NCBI GenBank assembly: GCA_017745595.1
Contig: WMBV01000001.1
Location: 1 to 64,000, forward strand
Direction: 5' to 3'
Length of the DNA stretch: 64,000 nucleotides
DNA from: Bordetella petrii
GTDB taxonomy: Bacteria; Pseudomonadota; Gammaproteobacteria; Burkholderiales; Burkholderiaceae_B
The translations under genes and the position numbers were made by a program. The notes beneath the pieces were generated by a model that worked only from the letters and a program-made list of their open reading frames with translations, did not search any database and was not told the origin of the DNA. Below, one piece after another: positions 10,118 to 56,135 of this stretch (the first letter of the stretch is position 1; every line of letters starts with the position of its first letter).

Positions 10118-11632
10118 TCACGCCTCTTCTTCCGCCGTGGCGGCAAAGGCTTCTCTTTTCTTTCTGAATGCGGGCAAGACCGAGCTCAGCAGCAGCAGCG
10201 CCGCAAGCGCGAAAAAAGTAATAGAGATATAGCTGGACACGAAGATCTCCATGCTTCCGGACGACAGCACCAGCGACTGGCGCATGGCGTTCTCGAGCAT
10301 GGGGCTGAGCACGAATGCCAGGATCAGCGGCGCCGGCTCGTATTCGAACTTGCGCATCAGGTAGCCCAGCACGCCGAAGAACAGCATCAAATACAGATCC
10401 ATTTCGTTGCCGTTGATGACGTAGGCGCCGGTCAGGGCAATGAACAGAATCAGCGGGAACAAAATGCCGTAAGGCACGCGCAGCAGGCGCACCCAGACGC
10501 CGATCAAGGGCAGGTTCAGCAGCAGCAGCAGCACGTTGCCGACATACATGCTGCTGACGACGCCCCAGAACAGATCGGGGTGCTGCTGGATCATGAGCGG
10601 GCCGGGCGAAATGCCGTGGATCATCAGCGCGCCCAGCAGAATCGCCATGACCGAATTGCCGGGCACGCCCAGCGTCAAGAGGGGAATGAACGACGACTGC
10701 GCGGCGGCATTGTTTGCCGCCTCGGGGGCCGCCACCCCGGCAATCGAGCCCTGGCCGAATTCCTCGGGCGTCCTGGAAATGCGCTTTTCCGCGCTGTACG
10801 ACACGAACGTCGACAGCGTGGCGCCGCCACCGGGCAGAATGCCGAGGAAGAATCCGGTCACCGAGCCCCGCATCATGGGAAAAAACGCCTGCCGCCAGTC
10901 TTTCCTGCTGGGCAGAAGATTCTTGACCTGGCTGACGACCACGCCCTGCTTGACCGTGCGCTCGACGTTCAGAAGAATCTCGGACACACCGAACAAGCCC
11001 ATTGCCAGCGGGGCGATATCGATGCCGTCCAGCAGGTCGGGCCTGTCAAAAGTGAAGCGCGGCAGGCCGGTCATGTTGTCCAGGCCGACCGTACCGACCA
11101 CCACGCCCACGGCGGCCATCATCAAGGCCTTGACCATCGATTTCTGGGCCAGGTAAGTCAGGATGACCAGCCCCAGTATCATCAGCGCGAAATACTCTGG
11201 CGGGCCGAATCGCAGCGCGATCGACGCCAGGGGCGGCGCAAGCGCCATCAGGCCGATGATGGACAAGGTGCCCGCGATAAAAGAACCGAAGGCGGCAATG
11301 CCCAGCGCGGGTCCGGCCCTGCCCTTCAGGGCCATCTGGTGGCCGTCGAGCGCGGTAATGACCGACGACGCCTCACCCGGCACGCCCACCAGTATCGAGG
11401 TTGTCGAGCCGCCGTATTGCGCGCCGTAGTAAATGCCGGCAAGCATGATGACCGCCGTTACCGGCGAAACGCCGTAGGTGACGGGCAGCAGGATGGCCAT
11501 GGTTCCGATCGGCCCCAGGCCGGGCAGCACGCCGATCAATGTGCCGATCAGCACGCCGAGAAAACAGAAGATCAAGTTGTGCCACTGGAAGGCGACATCA
11601 AAGCCATGGGCAACGTTCTGCAAAAGATCCAT
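10118..11632 (-). CDS. tctA: Tripartite tricarboxylate transporter large permease (TctA family)
   Basis: This 504-residue protein has about 12 membrane spans and the TctA signatures GVLPGLGPIGTMAILLP near residue 33 and GGSTTSILVGVPGE near 73. It forms the channel of a sodium- or proton-driven high-affinity carboxylate uptake system with TctB and a Bug receptor. The gene order TctB, TctA, Bug is canonical. The Tct system has a citrate-like reference substrate, but the actual ligand is not determined by the permease sequence. Confidence 0.93.
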   Translation of the reverse strand: MDLLQNVAHGFDVAFQWHNLIFCFLGVLIGTLIGVLPGLGPIGTMAILLPVTYGVSPVTAVIMLAGIYYGAQYGGSTTSILVGVPGEASSVITALDGHQMALKGRAGPALGIAAFGSFIAGTLSIIGLMALAPPLASIALRFGPPEYFALMILGLVILTYLAQKSMVKALMMAAVGVVVGTVGLDNMTGLPRFTFDRPDLLDGIDIAPLAMGLFGVSEILLNVERTVKQGVVVSQVKNLLPSRKDWRQAFFPMMRGSVTGFFLGILPGGGATLSTFVSYSAEKRISRTPEEFGQGSIAGVAAPEAANNAAAQSSFIPLLTLGVPGNSVMAILLGALMIHGISPGPLMIQQHPDLFWGVVSSMYVGNVLLLLLNLPLIGVWVRLLRVPYGILFPLILFIALTGAYVINGNEMDLYLMLFFGVLGYLMRKFEYEPAPLILAFVLSPMLENAMRQSLVLSSGSMEIFVSSYISITFFALAALLLLSSVLPAFRKKREAFAATAEEEA

Positions 11633-47192: not shown

Positions 47193-47558
47193 CTACGCCA
47201 TCGTGGCGTTGCGCCGCAGCGCCAGGTGCAGCCGCCGCCGGTAGCGCAACGGCGTGTCGACGGTATTGACCGCCAATTCCACTACCGAAACGGCGCGGCG
47301 GCACCAGACCATTCGCCCGGGACGCACATTGCGCGCCAGGCGCAGCACGCGGCCATCGGCACCGATGAACGCCACGTCGATGCAATAGCGCATGCCCATC
47401 GTATGCACGGCCCGGCACGGCGACAACCACAGGCCCGTGCGCGGCCCCGGTGCGCGCGCCCGGCACAACAGCCCGCGCAACCTGCCCACGCAACCGCGCG
47501 CGCGTGCCAACCGCAGGCGCCGGGGCGCCGCGCCCCGCAGGAAGTGACGGGCGTTCAT
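47193..47558 (-). CDS. DUF192 family protein at the end of the Tad locus
   Basis: This 121-residue protein has the DUF192 (UPF0127) core: GLWLSPCRAVHTMGMRYCIDVAFI followed by the conserved Val-Val/Glu-Leu segment near residue 92. The usual secretion signal is replaced by a very Arg-rich N terminus (1-40). Its ATG overlaps the tadC stop by 4 bases. DUF192 proteins are known neighbours of some Tad clusters, but their function is not settled. Confidence 0.8.
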   Translation of the reverse strand: MNARHFLRGAAPRRLRLARARGCVGRLRGLLCRARAPGPRTGLWLSPCRAVHTMGMRYCIDVAFIGADGRVLRLARNVRPGRMVWCRRAVSVVELAVNTVDTPLRYRRRLHLALRRNATMA

Positions 47559-48427
47559 TGGGCAGCCTGCCAGAGCTGCACCGCGATGGGAAACGCCAGC
47601 ACGATGAACGTGCACGGAAAGATGCAGCCGATCAGCGGCAACAGCATTTTTACCGGGGCTTCCATGGCCAGTTTTTCGGCGCGTTGGAACCGGTCGGTGC
47701 GGCATTGCGCCGCGTGTCCCCGCAACACCGTGCCCAGGCTCATGCCCAGGCCGTCGGCCTGGGTGAGCGCGGCGATCCAGTTGCGCACGGCCGGCGTGCC
47801 GGCGCGTTCGGCCAGCGCCTTCAGGGCGGCGGCGCGCGGCATGCCCGCGCGCATGTCGGCCAGGGCATGCGCCAGTTCTTGCCGCAAGGGCCCTGGCGGG
47901 CCATGCTGCTCGGCCTGTTGCAGGGCGCCGTGCAGCCCCAGCCCGGACTCGACGCAAAGCGTCATCATGTCGAGCACGAACGGCAGCTCGCGTCCGATGC
48001 GCAGGCGCCGCCTGGCCACGCGCTGCCGCACCCAGACCAGCGGCCAGCCTCCTGACAGGACACCCGCCGCCCCGGCCAGCGGCAGCCAGTCGGGCGATGC
48101 CCCCAGCCACCCCGCCGTTCCCAGGCTGGTGATGGCGCCCAGGGCCGCGGCGCTGGCTACCAGTGCGGCGGCATGCGCGGGGGTCACGGCGGCGGGCACA
48201 CCCGCCTGGGCCAGGCGACGCGCCAGCGCGGTACGCAAGCGCCACGACAAGAACGACGCACAGGCTGGCGCCCAGCCCGCCAGCCAGGGCCAGGACCAGC
48301 GCCAGATCCACGGCATGGCGGCCAGCGCCTGCGGCGCGGCGGCAGCATGCAGGGCCGGCCGCAGCAGCAGCCAGGCGGTGATGGCGACGGCCGTTCCGGC
48401 CAGAAGCATGGCAAGCAGCGACAGCAC
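47555..48427 (-). CDS. tadC: Tad pilus inner-membrane protein TadC (T2SS F family)
   Basis: This 290-residue protein is of T2SSF type. The cytoplasmic domain includes RELPFVLDMMTLCVESGLGL near residue 148 and ADGLGMSLGTVL near 222. Three or four membrane segments flank it, including the C-terminal FIVLAFPIAVQL. With TadB it forms the pilus assembly platform. It starts at a GTG 9 bases after tadB and overlaps the DUF192 gene. Confidence 0.9.
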   Translation of the reverse strand: MLSLLAMLLAGTAVAITAWLLLRPALHAAAAPQALAAMPWIWRWSWPWLAGWAPACASFLSWRLRTALARRLAQAGVPAAVTPAHAAALVASAAALGAITSLGTAGWLGASPDWLPLAGAAGVLSGGWPLVWVRQRVARRRLRIGRELPFVLDMMTLCVESGLGLHGALQQAEQHGPPGPLRQELAHALADMRAGMPRAAALKALAERAGTPAVRNWIAALTQADGLGMSLGTVLRGHAAQCRTDRFQRAEKLAMEAPVKMLLPLIGCIFPCTFIVLAFPIAVQLWQAAQ

Positions 48428-48436
48428 GGCACCCCC

Positions 48437-49282
48437 CTAGATGTCGATATCGACGATGCGGCGGATCAGCAACACCCCCGCCGTTTCCAGGCCGGCCATT
48501 ACCGCCAGCACGGCCCAGCCCAGCGGGGTATGCCACAGCACCGCCATGGCCTGGGGCTCCATGCGATCGAGCACGGCCATCAGCAATAACGGCAAGGCCC
48601 CCACGATCCATGCCTGCAGGCGACCCTGGGCGGTCAGCGCCCGCACCTTGCCCTGCAATTGCAGGCGCTCGCGCAGCGTGCGGGCGATGCCGTCGAGGGT
48701 TTCGGCCAGGTTGCCGCCGGTGTGCGAGGCCACGCGCAGCGCGGCCACCACCAGGGCCGACGCCTCGGAAGGCACGCGCTGGCTCAGGTGTTCCAACGCG
48801 GCATCGAAAGAGACCCCCAGCCGCTGTTCGCGCAGCATCAAGCCGAATTCCTGCGCCAGCGGCGCCTCGCTGTGATCGACGATGTGGCGCATGGCGGTGG
48901 ACACGCCTACGCCGGCCCGCAGCGCCGCGGCCAGGGCCAGCAGCGCCCCGGGCAGTTGCTGCTCGAAGCGCGCCAGCCGGCGATGGCGCAGCCGCCCGAC
49001 CATTTGCCGCGGCAGCCGGGCGGCCAGCGCGGCGGCCAGGCCGCCCAGCACGACACTGCCGCTGGCGGCCCATGTCGCCATGCCGGCCATGCCCGCCAGC
49101 AACAAGGCCGCCAGCCATAACTGGCCCGGGTCGATGAACAGGAACACTTCGCCGAGCCTGACACCGGCGTCATGCGTATACACCTGGCGGTAGCGTTGCA
49201 GCGCCGGTCCGAACCAGGCCTGCGCGCGCCAGGCCAGCAGCGCCGTGCAGGCCATGGACATTGCCAGCGCCAGCCAGATCAT
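48437..49282 (-). CDS. tadB: Tad pilus inner-membrane protein TadB (T2SS F family)
   Basis: This 281-residue T2SSF protein has a cytoplasmic domain of about 110-225 with LPGALLALAAALRAGVGV and HTGGNLAETLDGIARTLRER, and membrane segments near 5-15, 55-85 and 230-275. It partners TadC around the TadA ATPase. It overlaps the tadA stop in an ATGA arrangement, indicating coupled translation. Confidence 0.91.
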   Translation of the reverse strand: MIWLALAMSMACTALLAWRAQAWFGPALQRYRQVYTHDAGVRLGEVFLFIDPGQLWLAALLLAGMAGMATWAASGSVVLGGLAAALAARLPRQMVGRLRHRRLARFEQQLPGALLALAAALRAGVGVSTAMRHIVDHSEAPLAQEFGLMLREQRLGVSFDAALEHLSQRVPSEASALVVAALRVASHTGGNLAETLDGIARTLRERLQLQGKVRALTAQGRLQAWIVGALPLLLMAVLDRMEPQAMAVLWHTPLGWAVLAVMAGLETAGVLLIRRIVDIDI

Positions 49283-50934
49283 GATGCGACGGCGGCCGCG
49301 CCGCCCGCGCCGCCGCAGAACAAGGCAGGATCGAAAGCGATGCCGGCGGCGCGCCAGTCGTCAGCGAAACTGGGCAGCAGCCCGCAGCTCTGGAACCCCT
49401 GGCCGGGCCGATGGAGAAATAGTTCCTGCAGCTGGATACGGCCGCTTTCCAGGCCGGTGATCTCGACGATGGAGGTTGCCACGCGGCGGCCGTCGGACAG
49501 CCGCGCCTGTTGCACGATGATGTCGATGCTGGCGCCAATATGTTCGCGCACCACGCTCAATGGCAGGTCCATGCCGGCCATCAACACCATCGCTTCCAGG
49601 CGGCCCAGCGCATCGCGCGGCGAATTGGCGTGCAACGTCGTCAGCGACCCTTCGTGGCCGGTGTTCATGGCCGTGAGCATGTCGAAGGCTTCGGCGCCCC
49701 GGCACTCGCCCACCACGATACGGTCTGGACGCATGCGCAGGGCGTTGCGCACCAGGTCGCGGATATCGATGCGGCCGCGGTTCTCGAGATTGGCCGGGCG
49801 CGCCTCAAGCGCGACCAGATGGGCGTGGTCGAGCTTCAGCTCGGCGGCGTCTTCGATCGTGACGATGCGCTCGCCCTCGGGAATGCCGTTGGATAGTATG
49901 TTCAGCAGCGTGGTCTTGCCCGATCCGGTGCCGCCCGATACGACGATGTTCTTGCGGCTGCGCACGCACAGGTAAAGGAATTCGGCCATGGCGGCGTCGA
50001 TGGAACCCGCCTGGACCAGGTCGGCCATGCGCGGCCGGCGCATCGGAAATTTGCGGATGGTGACGCAGGCCCCTTTCAGGGCCACCGGCGGAATCACCGC
50101 GTTGACGCGCGAGCCGTCGGCCAGGCGGGCGTCGACCATGGGCGCGCTTTCGTCGATGCGGCGCCCCACCGGCGCCACGATGCGCTCGATGACCCAGCGC
50201 ACCGACTGCTCGCTGCTGAAAGCGGAATCGTGGCGCCACAGGCGCCCGTCGCGTTCGATGTAGATTTCATCGTGGCGGTTGATCATGATCTCGCTGATGC
50301 CCGTGTCGGCCAGCAGAGGTTCCAACGGCCCCAGGCCCACGGCTTCGTCCAGCACGTCGCGGCACAGCGCGGCGCGGTCGGCGTGGACCGGGATGCCGGT
50401 ATCGGCGGCGGCAATGTCGTCGAGCAGGCGCTGTGCCTCGCTGCGCAGCAAGGTGTCGCTCATGCCCGCCACGTCGCGCCGGCGCAGGTCCAGCGCCTGC
50501 AGCAAGGCGGCATGCAGGCGCCGGCGATGCGGCAGCAGGGCCAGCGCGCCCGCGGCCGGATCGGCTACGGAATCCGCCGCCGCGTCGCCCTGCGCGGACG
50601 GCGCCGTGAAGTCGGCAACGGGACCGGGCAGGCCGCCGACGCCGCTGTCGGCCAGGCGCACGCGCAGGCGGCAGGGCCCGATCAGGATGTCGTCTTCGGG
50701 CAGCACCGGCCGATGCACCGTGATGCGATGGCCGTTGACGAAAGTGCCCCCCAAAGAGCCGAGGTCTTCGAGTTCGAGCACCTGGCCCTGCCGCAGCAGC
50801 CGCGCGTGGTTCTTGGCCACGCGCCAATTGGCGATGCGCAAGCCGCATTGCGCGGTCCGGCCGATCAGCACGGGCGCGGCGGCCCGAGCGGAATGCTGTT
50901 GGCCGTCTTCGAAGGTCATGGAGATGTCGAGCAT
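49279..50934 (-). CDS. tadA: Tad pilus ATPase TadA/CpaF with an N-terminal FHA domain
   Basis: This 551-residue protein has an N-terminal forkhead-associated domain (about 1-100: LIGRTAQCGLRI, NHARLLR, LGGTFVNGHRI) joined to a CpaF-type ATPase (about 165-530). ATPase motifs are Walker A GGTGSGKTTLLN near 355, the Asp box RIVTIEDAAELKL, a Walker-B-like RMRPDRIVVGECRGAE, and HEGSLTTLHANS. FHA domains bind phosphothreonine peptides and are not part of standard TadA. The ATG at 50934 starts 2 bases after the rcpA stop. Confidence 0.92.
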   Translation of the reverse strand: MLDISMTFEDGQQHSARAAAPVLIGRTAQCGLRIANWRVAKNHARLLRQGQVLELEDLGSLGGTFVNGHRITVHRPVLPEDDILIGPCRLRVRLADSGVGGLPGPVADFTAPSAQGDAAADSVADPAAGALALLPHRRRLHAALLQALDLRRRDVAGMSDTLLRSEAQRLLDDIAAADTGIPVHADRAALCRDVLDEAVGLGPLEPLLADTGISEIMINRHDEIYIERDGRLWRHDSAFSSEQSVRWVIERIVAPVGRRIDESAPMVDARLADGSRVNAVIPPVALKGACVTIRKFPMRRPRMADLVQAGSIDAAMAEFLYLCVRSRKNIVVSGGTGSGKTTLLNILSNGIPEGERIVTIEDAAELKLDHAHLVALEARPANLENRGRIDIRDLVRNALRMRPDRIVVGECRGAEAFDMLTAMNTGHEGSLTTLHANSPRDALGRLEAMVLMAGMDLPLSVVREHIGASIDIIVQQARLSDGRRVATSIVEITGLESGRIQLQELFLHRPGQGFQSCGLLPSFADDWRAAGIAFDPALFCGGAGGAAAVAS

Positions 50935-50936
50935 GG

Positions 50937-52310
50937 TCACCTGGAATTGCCGTCGAGAGTGGTGGGCGCGGCCGGCCGCCATTGCGAACCGGGCCCCATA
51001 TAAGCGCCCCAGTCGAAATCGCCCGGCCCCGGCGCGGCGGTGCCCAGGGCGGGAGCGTCGGGAAACGCCTGTTTCAGCACGTGGCGGCCACGCTGCACGC
51101 GCTGCGCCAGTTCGGCATGGTCTTGCGACACAATGCGCGGCGTCACGAAGATGGCGAGTTCGGTTTCCTTGTGCTGGTCGCGGCGCGACGAAAACAAGGG
51201 CCCCAGCAAAGGGACGTCTTGCAGCCACGGCAACCCCGTGCGCTCGTGCGAACGCTCGCGCGACAGGAAGCCCCCCAATACCAGGGTCTGGCCCGAGCGC
51301 ACGTTGAACTCGGTCGTGGCGCGGCGCGTGCGCAGCGCCGGGCCGCCCGCCACGCTGAGCGAGGTATCGATGGAACTGGCTTCGACTTCGATGCGGGACC
51401 GGATGGCGCCATTGCGATCGATGCGCGGCGTGATGTTCAGTGAAACCCCGTACGGCTTGAATTCGGTCGTGTTGTTGCCTTGCGCGTCGGTGGTGTTGTA
51501 GGGCACTTCGCCGCCCGCCAGGAACGAAGCCGTGGTGCCGCTGCGGGCCAGCAACTGCGGCTGTGCCAGCAGCACGGCTTCGCCGCGCTGGGCCATGGCC
51601 GCGATACGCGCGGAAACCAGCGCGTTGACGCCGAAGTAGCCGCCGGCCGCCATGCCTTGCATGGCAAGCGGCGGCGCCTCTGCCGTATCGCCGAGCTGCA
51701 CGCCGGACGCGGGCTGCCAGATTCCCCCGGCATGTACCCCGCCCTGCGACACCGCGTCCCATTGCAGGCCGAACTCGCGCAGGCGCGAGCTGGGCAGTTC
51801 TACTACCTGCACGTCCAGCAGCACCATGCTGTCCCAGCCGACCTGGCCGGTGAAATCGAGAATGCGGGGATAACGCTGTGCCAGCGCGGCCACGCGGCCA
51901 CGGTCGTCGTCGGCCAGGTCGTCGCCTTCGATCACGATATTGCCGCCAACCACGTTGCTGCGCACATTGGGAATGCGCAGCAACAATGCCTGGACTTCTT
52001 CTTGCATCAGCGCCCAGCCGGCGGGCCGCACCTGCACGTCGTAAGCGGCGCCCACCCCCGCCGGCGTCCAGACGTGCACCGAAGACGCGCCCTCCTGGCG
52101 AGCGAACAGCACCACCTCGCGACCGTCGACCGACACGGCGCTAACCACCTGGCCATTGCCCACCGCCACCCGGGTGACCTCGGCGTGGCGCAGTACCTGT
52201 GTCTGGCCGACTTCCAGCGTCAGCGGGGCCGACGCCAGGGCCATGGCTGGCCGGGCAACCAGCAGCAACACCATGCCCAGCGCCCCCGCGCACCAGCGCG
52301 ACATTTTCAT
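50937..52310 (-). CDS. rcpA: Tad pilus outer-membrane secretin RcpA/CpaC
   Basis: This 457-residue protein has a signal peptide ending ARPAMALA, an N-terminal pilus-assembly domain (about 30-100), a BON-like region (about 105-170), and a C-terminal secretin domain (about 215-400) with AQPQLLARSGTTASFLAGGE and VRSGQTLVLGGFLSRE. It forms the outer-membrane channel. It overlaps the upstream CpaB gene by 4 bases. Confidence 0.92.
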   Translation of the reverse strand: MKMSRWCAGALGMVLLLVARPAMALASAPLTLEVGQTQVLRHAEVTRVAVGNGQVVSAVSVDGREVVLFARQEGASSVHVWTPAGVGAAYDVQVRPAGWALMQEEVQALLLRIPNVRSNVVGGNIVIEGDDLADDDRGRVAALAQRYPRILDFTGQVGWDSMVLLDVQVVELPSSRLREFGLQWDAVSQGGVHAGGIWQPASGVQLGDTAEAPPLAMQGMAAGGYFGVNALVSARIAAMAQRGEAVLLAQPQLLARSGTTASFLAGGEVPYNTTDAQGNNTTEFKPYGVSLNITPRIDRNGAIRSRIEVEASSIDTSLSVAGGPALRTRRATTEFNVRSGQTLVLGGFLSRERSHERTGLPWLQDVPLLGPLFSSRRDQHKETELAIFVTPRIVSQDHAELAQRVQRGRHVLKQAFPDAPALGTAAPGPGDFDWGAYMGPGSQWRPAAPTTLDGNSR

Positions 52311-53152
52311 GGCGCCCCCGGATCGGCCATGTGGCGGACGGCATCGGCGTCGAGCGCATGCGGCGCCGGCTCGGTATCGAGCCGATCGCCATACAGAATG
52401 GGCACGGGCGGACGCGGGCCCGCCACGTTGGTATCGATGCCCATCAACGCCGCCAGGTCGCCGGATGGCGATGACTGCGGCGCCGCGCCGTCGCCGCGAT
52501 GACGCAGCATGGCAGTCAGGGTGCCGCTATGCCGGGCCGCCACCAGCTTGATGGCATCCTGCGCCGAGGTATCCAGCGTAATGGCCGGGGTGGCATCCGC
52601 TGCGCCTCCCATTGCCAGAACGCGCACGCCTTGCAGCAACGGCGCCGTCAGGTGCTGGCCACGGTGCACGAACGATACGTAGAGGTCGATGAGATCGCCG
52701 GGCTGCAGCAGGCCCGGTACCGCATTGATGGCGTCGGCCGGCACGGTGACGGCGCGCCGCCCCGCCGCTACCAGGTCGGACAGTGGCGCGGCGCCGGCGT
52801 CGGGACTCAGGTGCACGTCGAGCAGCGCGTCGCCCCGTTTTATGTCGGTGGCCAGCACCATGCCGACGACCTGCCCGACCGCGTCGGGATCGAACGTGCC
52901 GCTGGCTACCCAGGGCAAGGGAATGCCGCGCACCGCCAGGTGCTCGGCTTGCATGCGGGTACCGGCCGGCAGGTCGAGGGCGGCGACCAGTTTGTCGGCC
53001 ACCGCGACGTTCGCTTCGCGTTCGAGCTCGAGTACCCGCGCCTGGATGTGCTCGCGGGCCGCCCAGGCGGCCACCAGGCCGGCGGCCAGCGCGAATCCGT
53101 AGACGCCCAGGGCGCGCAGTCGCGGCAGATATACCGACAGCGCGGATGTCAT
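52307..53152 (-). CDS. cpaB: Flp pilus assembly protein CpaB/RcpC
   Basis: This 281-residue protein has an N-terminal membrane anchor (about 14-32) and a SAF domain (about 50-115: LPAGTRMQAEHLAVRGIPLPW, DIKRGDALLDVHLSP). The RcpC/CpaB C-terminal domain follows, with RRAVTVPADAINAVPGLLQPGD. It stabilises the secretin channel in the periplasm. The ATG at 53152 overlaps the preceding gene stop by 4 bases. Confidence 0.9.
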   Translation of the reverse strand: MTSALSVYLPRLRALGVYGFALAAGLVAAWAAREHIQARVLELEREANVAVADKLVAALDLPAGTRMQAEHLAVRGIPLPWVASGTFDPDAVGQVVGMVLATDIKRGDALLDVHLSPDAGAAPLSDLVAAGRRAVTVPADAINAVPGLLQPGDLIDLYVSFVHRGQHLTAPLLQGVRVLAMGGAADATPAITLDTSAQDAIKLVAARHSGTLTAMLRHRGDGAAPQSSPSGDLAALMGIDTNVAGPRPPVPILYGDRLDTEPAPHALDADAVRHMADPGAP

Positions 53153-53844
53153 GGCGTGCCCTTTTGATGCTGCTGCAACAGAATGCCGCTGCCGCCGTCG
53201 ACCGCGGCGTAGGCGATGTCGAGCGAGGCGTGGCCGCGCGTACAGTGTTCGGCATCGCCCGCGCCGGCGATGCATTGCCAGCCATCGCGGCGCAGCCCCT
53301 GGGCGGCGGCCTGCCGGGCCTGGGACACCGGCAGCGGCAGGGTCCAGACCTGGTGCAGGGTGAGGCGGTCGCCATCGTGGTCGCTGAAGTCGAGGCGCAG
53401 GTTCGCCTGGCCGGGCAGCCAGGACGGCCGCCTGGCAATGTGCGCGCCGCCGGCCAGATTCAGTACCGTTACGCTGCCGCGCGTACGCCCTGGGCCGGCG
53501 GCCTCGAGCGCGGCCAGCCACATCTGGCCCGCCGCCTGCCCGGACAATATGGCAAAACCGGGGTACACCCCCAGGTCGGAAAGCATGGGATACCGTTTGG
53601 TCAGCGCGGGCACGGCCTGCGCAATGGGCAGCGGGATGTCGACAAGGCGGATATCGGCCGGCATGCCATACAGCCGCATGCCCGCGCCCAATGGCCCCTG
53701 GGTGCTGCCCGGCGGCAACGCCAGAGCATCCGGTGCCGATGCGGGCGCGGCATGCGCCGTACACGCCAGCAGGCACGCCAGTACGCCCACCGCCGGGGCC
53801 GGAAGCACGCCGCGACGGCGCCTTGAACGATGCGGTTTATTCAT
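53149..53844 (-). CDS. Exported protein of unknown function in the Tad locus
   Basis: This 231-residue protein has a clear signal peptide: basic MNKPHRSRRRR, a hydrophobic core, then ACTAHAAP near residue 33. The mature part is alanine- and glycine-rich with two cysteines near the C terminus (WQCIAG and EHCTRG), which could form a disulfide. I recognise no family. Its place between the TadE-like protein and CpaB, with overlaps or tiny gaps, suggests a periplasmic or outer-membrane accessory such as an RcpB or TadD substitute. Confidence 0.75.
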   Translation of the reverse strand: MNKPHRSRRRRGVLPAPAVGVLACLLACTAHAAPASAPDALALPPGSTQGPLGAGMRLYGMPADIRLVDIPLPIAQAVPALTKRYPMLSDLGVYPGFAILSGQAAGQMWLAALEAAGPGRTRGSVTVLNLAGGAHIARRPSWLPGQANLRLDFSDHDGDRLTLHQVWTLPLPVSQARQAAAQGLRRDGWQCIAGAGDAEHCTRGHASLDIAYAAVDGGSGILLQQHQKGTP

Positions 53845-53848
53845 GGGA

Positions 53849-54478
53849 TCAGTGCCTTGCTGCGGCGGGCGCCAGATCGGCCCATGGCGCCAGCCAATCG
53901 GTGGACCAGCGGCCGCGCCCCCAAGGCGCATCGACCGGCTGCATGCGGCGGTACACGGCCTGCGCTGCCGCCCGGGATTGCTGCTCGGCATCGGACCAAC
54001 CGGTAGGCGACAGGCCCAGGCGCTGTACCGTGGCCACCGCGCCATCGGCATGCCCGGCGTTCTCGGCCAATACGGTATGGCGTTGCACCGACAGGAAGGC
54101 GGCGGGTTCGTCGTGCCGCATGAAAGCCTGGCCGCGATGCGCATGGACGCGGGCCTGGGCCACGCGCAGACGCGGATCGGCCCGCAGCCAATCGCGCGCC
54201 AGCACCACGGCCTGCGCATCGCCGGCCTGCGCGTGGGCATCGCGGTAAGACGACAAGCCGGTGGAGATCGTGGCCCGTGTCCAGGCGGGAATTTCCGCCT
54301 GGCCGCGCGCAGCGGCAAACGCGGCATGCCTGCCCAGCTGGCTGGCCTGCAAACCCTGCATCTGCAATGCACCCACCATGGCCATGCCCTGCACCAGCCC
54401 TGCCACCACGGCCAGGGCCAGCACGGCCTCGATCAGCGCATGGCCCCGCATGGCCGGGGGCCTGAAGAAAGGCGTCAT
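53849..54478 (-). CDS. TadE-like pseudopilin/pilus assembly protein
   Basis: This 209-residue protein has a short positive N terminus and a single hydrophobic segment (RGHALIEAVLALAVVAGLVQ), typical of TadE-like proteins with a pilin-like Glu early in the membrane helix. A long extracytoplasmic domain follows. It overlaps the upstream TadG-like gene by 4 bases. TadE-type pseudopilins prime or cap Flp pili. Confidence 0.72.
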   Translation of the reverse strand: MTPFFRPPAMRGHALIEAVLALAVVAGLVQGMAMVGALQMQGLQASQLGRHAAFAAARGQAEIPAWTRATISTGLSSYRDAHAQAGDAQAVVLARDWLRADPRLRVAQARVHAHRGQAFMRHDEPAAFLSVQRHTVLAENAGHADGAVATVQRLGLSPTGWSDAEQQSRAAAQAVYRRMQPVDAPWGRGRWSTDWLAPWADLAPAAARH

Positions 54479-55881
54479 AGCGATTCTCTGAAAGTATCGC
54501 CGGCCGCCACCGGGCTGAGGCGCGCCTGCCAATAAGGGCGGAACAAGCCGGCGAATTCGAGCGGCCCAGCGGCCGGTGGTGGCGCGAAATAGGTTTCTGC
54601 CGCGCTGGCGACGGTAACGGCTTCGCCCGCGCGCAGGCCAGCGTAGGCATAGCGGCCCATGGGTGCGGCGACTTGGCTGACGGCGTCGGTGGTGGAAAGT
54701 GCAGCGGCCGTCTGGCGCACCTGGATGGCGAAACGCAGCGGCTGTTCGGAAACGCGGCCGGCAAGCTCGTGGTACGACGGCAACCCGCGGCTGGACCAAC
54801 GCACGCCGCCCGCCACCGCATACGAATTGGCCATGGGATTGTCGCGGCCGGAAAAGATGTCCCAGGACGTGTGCTCGTGCACCCAGCGCCAGAAATCTTG
54901 TTGCGAAAAATCTTGCGGCGGCTTGTCGATGTATTCGTCCGAGCCCAGGAATGGGCGCCCGCCCTGGCCCCACCCCATGGCGTACTCGCGGTAGTAGCAG
55001 CCGATCCAGCGATTGGAGCGCAAGGCATGATACGAAAGGGTATCCAGCGCCCCCCAGCGGCCGTCGCTGCCCAGCCAGGTGCCGCCGCGACGCCGCAATT
55101 CGTGCCGGCGCGTCGGGCAGCTGCGATGCACGATCCAGGCGCTATGGCGGGTCAGGGTGCGCGGACGCAGAAAGTCGTAGCGGCCGGCGGCCGATTCGAC
55201 CATGCCGCGCAGGCTGGCGGGCGCGTTGCCGGCATACTGTTGCAGGTAGCCGGCCGCGGCGTCTGGCGATTCGCGCAGCGACAGCGGCCCGTGCTGCGCA
55301 ACCGCCTGGGCGCCGTAGGCGGGGTAGAACTCGGGATAGTTCGCATGCAGCACGCGCAGCATGGTCTGGCGGCGGGCTTCGGGCAAATGAGAAACCGCCG
55401 AGGCCGATGCTTGCTGCAGCACCTGGTGCACGGCCTGGTCGTGCTGCTGGAAGGCGCGGGCCAATTCGGGCACCGCGCTGCCCGTGGCGCTGGCCCGCGC
55501 ATAGGCGGTACCCAGCGTGGGCCCGAACAGCGCCCCTATCAGGGTGGCGGGCGGATTGCCGCGGGCGCGCTGCTGCGATTGCGCTTGGCCGAACTGGGCC
55601 CACGACGCCAGGGTGACCAGGTGCGCCATGGCCACCTGATGCGCGACTTGCGCGCGATTGACGTAGGCAAGCAGGTTGAGCGCGCGGGCCTGCGACAATG
55701 CACCGCTATAGGCGGCGGCGTCGGCCGCGTGCGTCAGGCGTACGCGCGCGGCGGCGGTTTGCCCGACGTTGTACAACGCCACCAGGGCCACGCCGCCGAC
55801 CGCGGCCAGCGCCAGGACCAGGGGCAACGCCTGGCCGCGCTGAGCCGCCCCGCGCCGTGGGCGCCGCGGCCGCCGCATCAT
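54475..55881 (-). CDS. TadG-like pilus assembly protein
   Basis: This 468-residue protein has a basic N terminus (RRPRRPRRG), the TadE/G-like N-terminal membrane helix RGQALPLVLALAAVGGVALV, and a long periplasmic part starting HAADAAAYSGALSQARALN, the usual TadG context. No von Willebrand A domain motif is evident. It overlaps both neighbours by 4 bases. Confidence 0.8.
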   Translation of the reverse strand: MMRRPRRPRRGAAQRGQALPLVLALAAVGGVALVALYNVGQTAAARVRLTHAADAAAYSGALSQARALNLLAYVNRAQVAHQVAMAHLVTLASWAQFGQAQSQQRARGNPPATLIGALFGPTLGTAYARASATGSAVPELARAFQQHDQAVHQVLQQASASAVSHLPEARRQTMLRVLHANYPEFYPAYGAQAVAQHGPLSLRESPDAAAGYLQQYAGNAPASLRGMVESAAGRYDFLRPRTLTRHSAWIVHRSCPTRRHELRRRGGTWLGSDGRWGALDTLSYHALRSNRWIGCYYREYAMGWGQGGRPFLGSDEYIDKPPQDFSQQDFWRWVHEHTSWDIFSGRDNPMANSYAVAGGVRWSSRGLPSYHELAGRVSEQPLRFAIQVRQTAAALSTTDAVSQVAAPMGRYAYAGLRAGEAVTVASAAETYFAPPPAAGPLEFAGLFRPYWQARLSPVAAGDTFRESL

Positions 55882-56135
55882 TTGGCATTGCCGGTAAACG
55901 ACTTCAGCGTGCGCTCTTTGGTTTGCGCCGCCGCCTTGCCGGCCGCCGACTGCGCCGCGCGAGCTTCAGCACTGCCGTCTTCGCCCGCCAGCTCGCGCGC
56001 CATGGCGGCGGTTTGCGACCGCACCACCTGGCCGAACAATTGATAGACCGCGATGGCCGCCACGGCGATCAGCGCCACCACAATGATGTATTCGGTCATT
56101 CCTTGCCCGCGCTGGCGGGAAACGCATCGGACCAT
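55878..56135 (-). CDS. Flp-type (type IVb) pilin
   Basis: This 85-residue prepilin has the class-defining G/XXXXEY cleavage motif: Gly10 followed by QGMTEY, which puts Glu at mature position 5 and Tyr at 6. A hydrophobic helix, IIVVALIAVAAIAVYQLFG, follows, then an Ala-rich C-terminal tail. It is the first gene of the Tad operon and the best candidate for the structural pilin. It is longer than typical Flp (50-75 residues). No tadV prepilin peptidase gene is in the window. Confidence 0.85.
   Translation of the reverse strand: MVRCVSRQRGQGMTEYIIVVALIAVAAIAVYQLFGQVVRSQTAAMARELAGEDGSAEARAAQSAAGKAAAQTKERTLKSFTGNAK

Follow-up and report, generated by a model that had tools for sequence, protein, structure and literature searches.

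A Tad pilus locus in Bordetella petrii with an FHA domain on its motor ATPase and without tadZ

The first 64,000 nucleotides of contig WMBV01000001.1 (Bordetella petrii, assembly GCA_017745595.1), which as a whole we call the window, contain on the minus strand a Tad pilus locus whose motor ATPase, TadA, carries an N-terminal FHA domain. The genome is 6.1 Mb in 68 contigs, and its closest named relatives are Bordetella sp. BOR01, B. genomosp. 2 and 7 and B. petrii. Ten open reading frames (ORFs), all present, run from position 56135 to 47193 and encode a pilin, a TadG-like protein, a TadE-like protein, an exported protein, CpaB, RcpA, FHA-TadA, TadB, TadC and a DUF192 protein. A sequence-only reading of this DNA had described a compact ten-gene locus with an FHA-TadA fusion and 4-base overlaps at six of its nine junctions, and the ORFs and Pfam matches bear this out: the overlaps are pilin/TadG, TadG/TadE, exported/CpaB, CpaB/RcpA, TadA/TadB and TadC/DUF192. 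The remaining junctions are gaps of 4 bases (TadE/exported), 2 bases (RcpA/TadA) and 9 bases (TadB/TadC), and an alternative GTG start at 50940 would turn RcpA/TadA into a seventh overlap.

The pilin gene (55878-56135) encodes a short, Flp-like prepilin of 85 residues with a weak, sub-cut-off match to Flp_Fap (E 0.021); across 83 relatives, the consensus near its N-terminus is GQgMTEY. The TadG-like protein (54475-55881, 468 residues) scores 21.7 bits against PF13400 (Tad), just below the cut-off of 22.3, and the TadE-like pseudopilin (53849-54478, 209 residues), which has an N-terminal hydrophobic segment and no Pfam match, was named by its position and by reading the sequence. The next gene encodes an exported protein of 231 residues, here called ExpW (53149-53844), whose signal sequence was judged by eye. 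CpaB/RcpC (52307-53152, 281 residues) matches PF16976 (E 1.8e-16), SAF and TIGR03177, and the RcpA/CpaC secretin (50937-52310, 457 residues) matches PF00263 (Secretin, E 5.4e-46) and PF13629. Beyond the motor gene lie the two inner-membrane platform proteins TadB (48437-49282, 281 residues) and TadC (47555-48427, 290 residues, GTG start), both matching PF00482 (T2SSF; E 4.5e-20 and 5.8e-16), and the DUF192 protein (47193-47558, 121 residues; PF02643, E 1.1e-7). The locus thus has the TadA/CpaF motor, separate TadB and TadC, RcpA secretin and CpaB/RcpC that define a Tad (type IVc) system. Two usual Tad components, TadZ and TadV, have no profile match anywhere in the window, and on this result we rejected the idea of a TadZ hidden elsewhere in this stretch.

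The motor itself (49279-50934, 551 residues) matches both FHA (E 2.7e-12, residues 22-84) and T2SSE (E 6e-62) in Pfam. In the AlphaFold2 model, residues 1-90 form a block with pLDDT of 89-97, followed by a linker (98-125) below 50 and then by helices and the ATPase. Taken together, Pfam and the model give an FHA domain at residues 1-94 (50653-50934), a disordered linker at about 98-125, a three-helix region at 127-177, an N-terminal domain (NTD) and the ATPase domain, with a conserved P-loop (GGTGSGKT). The closest solved match to the motor in a fold search of the PDB is CpaF (9e24 and 8rkd; 44% identity over 408 columns), and among solved structures the FHA domain is closest in sequence to those of GarA/Rv1827 and OdhI.

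The absence of tadZ and tadV, which the sequence-only reading had noted, holds for the locus and for the window but not for the genome: contig C20 carries a second, conventional Tad locus with both (L081:3541-15781; L numbers denote loci and G numbers genomes). Its genes are flp, tadV, tadE, tadF, cpaB, rcpA, tadZ, a tadA without FHA, tadB, tadC, tadD and a TadG-like gene. Flp, TadV, TadE, CpaB and TadA (without FHA) are confirmed by Pfam and the others were named by place and reading; the C20 TadZ, which has no Pfam match of its own, was named by profile similarity and place. A gene resembling a sigma-54-type regulator, by eye, follows this locus. The genome encodes two prepilin peptidases, one on contig C32 and the TadV of C20, in agreement with the prediction that the peptidase for the window's prepilins must come from elsewhere.

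We surveyed 200 tadA loci for their neighbourhoods, comprising 194 distinct TadA cores. Besides the window, these are 41 loci from the relatives' genomes search (40 of 44 further tadA places, and the C20 locus), 78 found by patterns taken from the window protein and thus biased toward its relatives, and 80 from 42 places (two low-scoring ones left out) and 38 places hand-picked from a larger set. FHA was scored by a profile built from the FHA-TadA family. TadZ was scored by profile as well, and a match above 100 bits within 8 kb of TadA counted as adjacent.

When 61 genomes (60 relatives and its own) were searched with the window protein, 40 gave a match with E no higher than 1e-100. Among the 194 distinct TadA, 93 have FHA and no adjacent TadZ (FHA-type), 90 have TadZ and no FHA (TadZ-type), none has both and 11 have neither. 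The profile alone gave 89 TadZ-type loci, and L078 was added after its sequence was read. No FHA-type locus has a TadZ match above 100 bits; L174 has one 20-bit match 6.5 kb away. Eight of the 11 with neither are accounted for as follows: L062 runs off the end of its contig; L163 we do not read as Tad; L156, L159 and L160 are Fusobacteria or Bacillota loci with an unknown upstream ORF; in L179 (G091) the FHA part (10384-10710) immediately precedes tadA but in a different frame, which may reflect a frameshift, a sequencing error or a split gene; and L244 supplies two TadA, one with an FHA-like N-terminus that the profile missed. This last protein (L244:7800-9698, in G224, of the same phylum) was recognised by eye and has no TadZ match nearby. 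The other three are considered below.

Further observations bear on where the FHA domain occurs. We rejected the idea that relatives aligning only from about residue 102-137 lack it: most of those in the family whose N-terminus is whole carry FHA with a longer linker. The second-type TadA of L077-L080 has no FHA. Among plasmid records, 317 have a match; in no record does it span 80% of the query at a single site, and no FHA part was seen. Nine Paenibacillus and Cohnella loci (L144, L145, L147, L148, L150, L151, L154, L155 and L161) have a diverged TadZ beside tadA and, several kb downstream, a distinct ORF that matches FHA weakly (25-35 bits).

The two types also differ in their companion genes. 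TadV is found at none of the 93 FHA-type loci versus 75 of the 90 TadZ-type, and TadD at 16 versus 60; conversely, DUF192 is present at 90 FHA-type loci versus 3 TadZ-type, the exported protein at 84 versus 0 and a pilin of the window kind at 83 versus 10. The TadG-like and TadE-like families occur at 88 and 89 of the 93 FHA-type loci, respectively. T2SSF platform proteins are present at all 93, a count that applies to T2SSF proteins as such since the TadB and TadC profiles match each other. The window's exact ten-gene order is kept in 75 of the 82 FHA-type loci with enough flank, so the arrangement is more than chance.

The exported protein resists assignment. AlphaFold2 models its mature part with a mean pLDDT of 93, as two halves that by eye share a similar strand-helix-strand order. 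The window's protein has no match in Pfam and, by sequence, none in the PDB at E up to 1, and when 44 family members were compared with Pfam, seven families came up, each through one or two members with E no better than 0.013. The best fold matches, MucB by Foldseek (E 5e-3, TM 0.18) and PsbP by VIA (Z 7.2), lie within the tool's stated chance range.

A TadZ encoded away from the FHA-type locus could serve it. We scanned 51 FHA-TadA genomes with a profile of 13 TadZ proteins, four of which match Pfam TadZ_N; the profile retrieves solved TadZ and CpaE chains from the PDB. The scan left out G024, whose FHA part is truncated at the edge of a contig, the 75% complete G028, and G180. The scores fall into two groups: 20 of the 51 genomes have a match of at least 150 bits, and the rest reach at most 108 bits. 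Some match at any level occurs in 50 of the 51 (G082 has nothing), and those of 108 bits or less are at the level of MinD/ParA, mostly covering the MinD-like part only. No TadZ-level match exists anywhere in 31 of the 51, and we therefore rejected supply of TadZ in trans as an account for all FHA-TadA genomes. In the genomes with both loci whose sequences were read (G000, G016, G022, G035, G042, G091 and G136), TadZ adjoins the TadA without FHA. A prepilin peptidase above the cut-off is present in 29 of the 31 TadZ-less genomes (G030 has a sub-cut-off match only and G034 none), which is consistent with a shared enzyme processing the FHA-type prepilins.

The FHA-type motors have a common origin. 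In a quick maximum-likelihood tree with SH-aLRT support only, for which 192 rows were thinned to 148 TadA cores and L163 (VirB11-like) and one row with a short core were left out, all 64 FHA rows group with L179 and L062 (SH-aLRT 93). Its members come from numerous families in the order, plus two from other orders in the same class. The two L244 rows adjoin it (support 85), and the L244 TadA with the FHA-like N-terminus, on a long branch beside the clade, is perhaps its deepest member. With a single FHA clade, the mutual exclusion of FHA and TadZ reads as one historical change long kept, and not as many independent ones.

We compared the FHA domain with what is known of phosphopeptide recognition. 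Papers are cited here by PMC number. FHA domains share five highly conserved residues: two of them, Gly and His, have a structural role, and the other three, Arg, Ser and Asn, touch the phosphopeptide directly (PMC4037201). The window's domain keeps Gly25, Arg26 and His43, while the contact Ser is replaced by Ala40 and the contact Asn of the S-x-N-G-T loop by Gly62. The same holds for the family: across 93 FHA-TadA, Gly and His43 are each kept in 92, and the contact Arg is Arg in 77, Lys in 14 and Ser in 2, whereas the contact Ser is Ser in 5, Ala in 44 and Gly in 44, and the contact Asn is found in none. As controls we used 33 FHA domains from related genomes, a subset of the non-TadA matches made up of 12 non-TadA loci, 20 fetched places and L010; these have Arg in 33, Ser in 28 and Asn in 26, with all three in 26.

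FHA-TadA have fixed positions of their own, W37 and N67 in 90 of 93 each, and Trp37 is found in none of the controls. The conservation of W37, R38, N67 and P76 suggests, at the level of sequence, a face of the domain that is still in use. Purifying selection acts on the FHA domain: in five within-genus comparisons its dN/dS is 0.13-0.26, between the 0.54-0.97 of the linker and the 0.045-0.065 of the ATPase part.

The five controls without the contact Ser are all of one type, represented in the window's genome by a protein on contig C23 (L082, 9924-11072), the only FHA match there besides TadA. By eye, this protein sits in an apparent type VI secretion cluster, and it has Cys at the usual position of the phospho-contact Ser, as do four relatives (L290-L293). 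From these residues, the C23-type FHA domain, like that of FHA-TadA, may not be a phosphothreonine reader.

Protein kinases were sought in 23 FHA-TadA genomes (the first 22 of the 51 and G024) with the Pfam Pkinase family, other kinase families not being searched. Ten genomes, the window's among them, hold a Pkinase above the Pfam cut-off and 13 do not, 12 of these having short sub-cut-off matches only. In seven of the 13 (G009, G010, G012, G014, G018, G021 and G022), FHA-TadA is the sole FHA match. The single Pkinase above the cut-off in the window's genome (L085, C10:28935-29564) lies in a 1887-residue open frame on a contig other than that of the Tad locus.

We take the window locus for a complete, distinct Tad (type IVc) pilus subtype and not a decayed one, and we favour the view that the FHA domain on its motor serves for docking and leaves phosphorylation unread. 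By homology, TadA would power pilin addition and removal via TadB and TadC, CpaB and the RcpA secretin would form the exit path, and the prepilins would be cut by a peptidase encoded elsewhere in the genome. TadZ has been described as a recruiting hub for the other parts of the Tad machine (PMC6668835), and its counterpart CpaE has been fitted in situ as a ring surrounding CpaF, with TadZ/CpaE called ubiquitous (PMC13170226). A motor with its own docking domain could do without it. In this subtype the ParA/MinD-like hub is missing and the motor instead bears an FHA domain on a flexible linker, which would be present six times per hexamer given a CpaF-like architecture. These domains would tether the motor to a partner, located in the inner-membrane complex or at the assembly site, with phosphorylation not needed, and would thereby do in cis part of TadZ's recruiting job. 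That the FHA domain docks the motor independently of phosphorylation and that this covers the role of TadZ, both of which we infer, seems to us to have nearly an even chance. The fuller account, in which the lineage dispensed with TadZ, an FHA domain stripped of phosphothreonine recognition anchors the TadA hexamer via an unphosphorylated partner, and the machine is rebuilt with DUF192 and the new exported protein, is offered tentatively as falling somewhat short of that.

Several points weigh against docking in place of TadZ. A single origin makes the link between FHA and TadZ a correlation: the absence of TadZ and TadV, the FHA domain, DUF192 and the exported protein travel together because they belong to one clade, and any of them could matter. 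In the stretches read around L195, L206 and L237, TadA has no FHA and no TadZ near it; as G142, the genome of L195, holds no TadZ-level match at all, a motor that carries no FHA can exist where TadZ is absent. The search for a partner of the FHA domain found none, and conservation in 93 TadB and 76 TadC gave no clear docking motif. We found no experiment on a member of the FHA-TadA clade in the open-licence literature searched. The suggestion that FHA replaces TadZ is consistent with the survey, in which the two never adjoin and 31 of 51 FHA-TadA genomes have no TadZ-level match, but the exclusion arose once and three loci lack both.

The main rival to docking gives the FHA domain a regulatory or autoinhibitory role, as a cap over the ATPase, or a part in hexamer assembly, with no relation to TadZ, whose job would be unneeded or done by DUF192, the exported protein or the MinD/ParA of the cell. 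The position of the domain on a flexible linker beside the motor in the AlphaFold2 model suits a cap, and it has been proposed that variable N-terminal extensions could modulate the CpaF active site (PMC11300603). DUF192 and the exported protein are as typical of the subtype as FHA is, MinD/ParA-level matches occur in nearly all the genomes scanned, and the loci without both TadZ and FHA again fit. A cap alone, however, does not account for why FHA and TadZ should exclude each other across 183 loci, though a single origin could yield this by descent, and the exported protein, judging from its signal sequence by eye, would be expected across the membrane from the motor. We consider this explanation possible but unlikely.

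The FHA domain could instead read a phosphorylated partner through its altered pocket, with a Ser/Thr kinase switching the pilus. The wording of PMC12019362 implies such reading, and FHA signalling has been suggested for the Kil system of Myxococcus (PMC8460266). The fold is confidently predicted and its nearest solved relatives are GarA and OdhI, a Pkinase above the cut-off is present in the window's genome, on C10, and in nine others of the 23, and with Arg26 mostly kept (or Lys) and Ser kept in a few family members, an unusual phospho-ligand is conceivable, which is also a point against docking without phosphorylation. On the other hand, Ser and Asn, both direct phosphopeptide contacts (PMC4037201), are gone in nearly all or all of the family, no operon protein matches a protein kinase family in Pfam, and in several of the Pkinase-less genomes there is no other FHA protein. 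Together, the lost pocket residues and the 13 genomes without a Pkinase above the cut-off make phosphorylation by a Hanks kinase unlikely as a general control. The phosphorylation control proposed by the sequence-only reading is thus disfavoured, and we regard reading of phosphorylation through the altered pocket as improbable. That the locus is a truncated, inactive Tad remnant is hardly credible: the tadE-orf-rcpCA-tadABC cluster of Kerstersia gyiorum, lacking flp, has been called incomplete and "likely to be null" (PMC6461280), and tadZ, tadV and mostly tadD are missing here too, but the identical ten-gene order across loci, the low dN/dS of the ATPase and FHA parts, the pilin gene of the window kind at most FHA-type loci and the conserved P-loop all speak against decay.

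The fusion of FHA to TadA is already in print, as class III CpaF (PMC12019362) and as KilF (PMC8460266). Class III CpaF (FHA-IDR-3HB-NTD-CAD) is mostly betaproteobacterial, with the example E3HIW0 from Achromobacter xylosoxidans; the window TadA has the same domain order by Pfam and AlphaFold2, and Achromobacter and Bordetella members fall in one clade. The class III FHA domain is said to bind phosphothreonine peptides (PMC12019362), whereas two of the three contact residues are lost in the family described here; the residues do not support this binding as printed. The words TadZ and CpaE are absent from the main text of that paper. A link between FHA-TadA and the absence of TadZ was not found in the open-licence literature, which omits most subscription papers, and as far as we have seen there is no earlier description of this subtype with its additional parts, of the altered FHA pocket or of the exclusion of TadZ.

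KilF of Myxococcus xanthus resembles the window TadA in being a Tad-like hexameric ATPase with an N-terminal FHA domain (PMC8460266, PMC12075869), and differs in that further FHA proteins are encoded among the kil genes; here KilF is compared by its published description. A parallel to the proposed role is provided by EssC of the type VII secretion system T7SSb, whose motor FHA domains lack a phosphothreonine site and dock EssB, presumably without phosphorylation (PMC11217815). EssC belongs to another motor family (FtsK-related) and another membrane system (PMC11217815), and the likeness is one of working principle only. The Kerstersia cluster resembles the window type by gene order, and the conservation of the type speaks against this second Tad cluster being truncated and null (PMC6461280).

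A further comparison lies within the window's own genome. The C20 locus shares with that of the window TadA, TadB, TadC, RcpA, CpaB, a Flp-like pilin and TadE/G-like proteins; C20 has tadZ, tadV and tadD and no FHA, whereas the window locus lacks all of these genes and carries FHA, DUF192 and the exported protein in addition. A conserved, widespread and little-noticed lineage appears to manage without TadZ, a component called ubiquitous (PMC13170226), and in genomes with both kinds of Tad, the window's included, the function of TadZ is open to study by comparing two machines in one cell.

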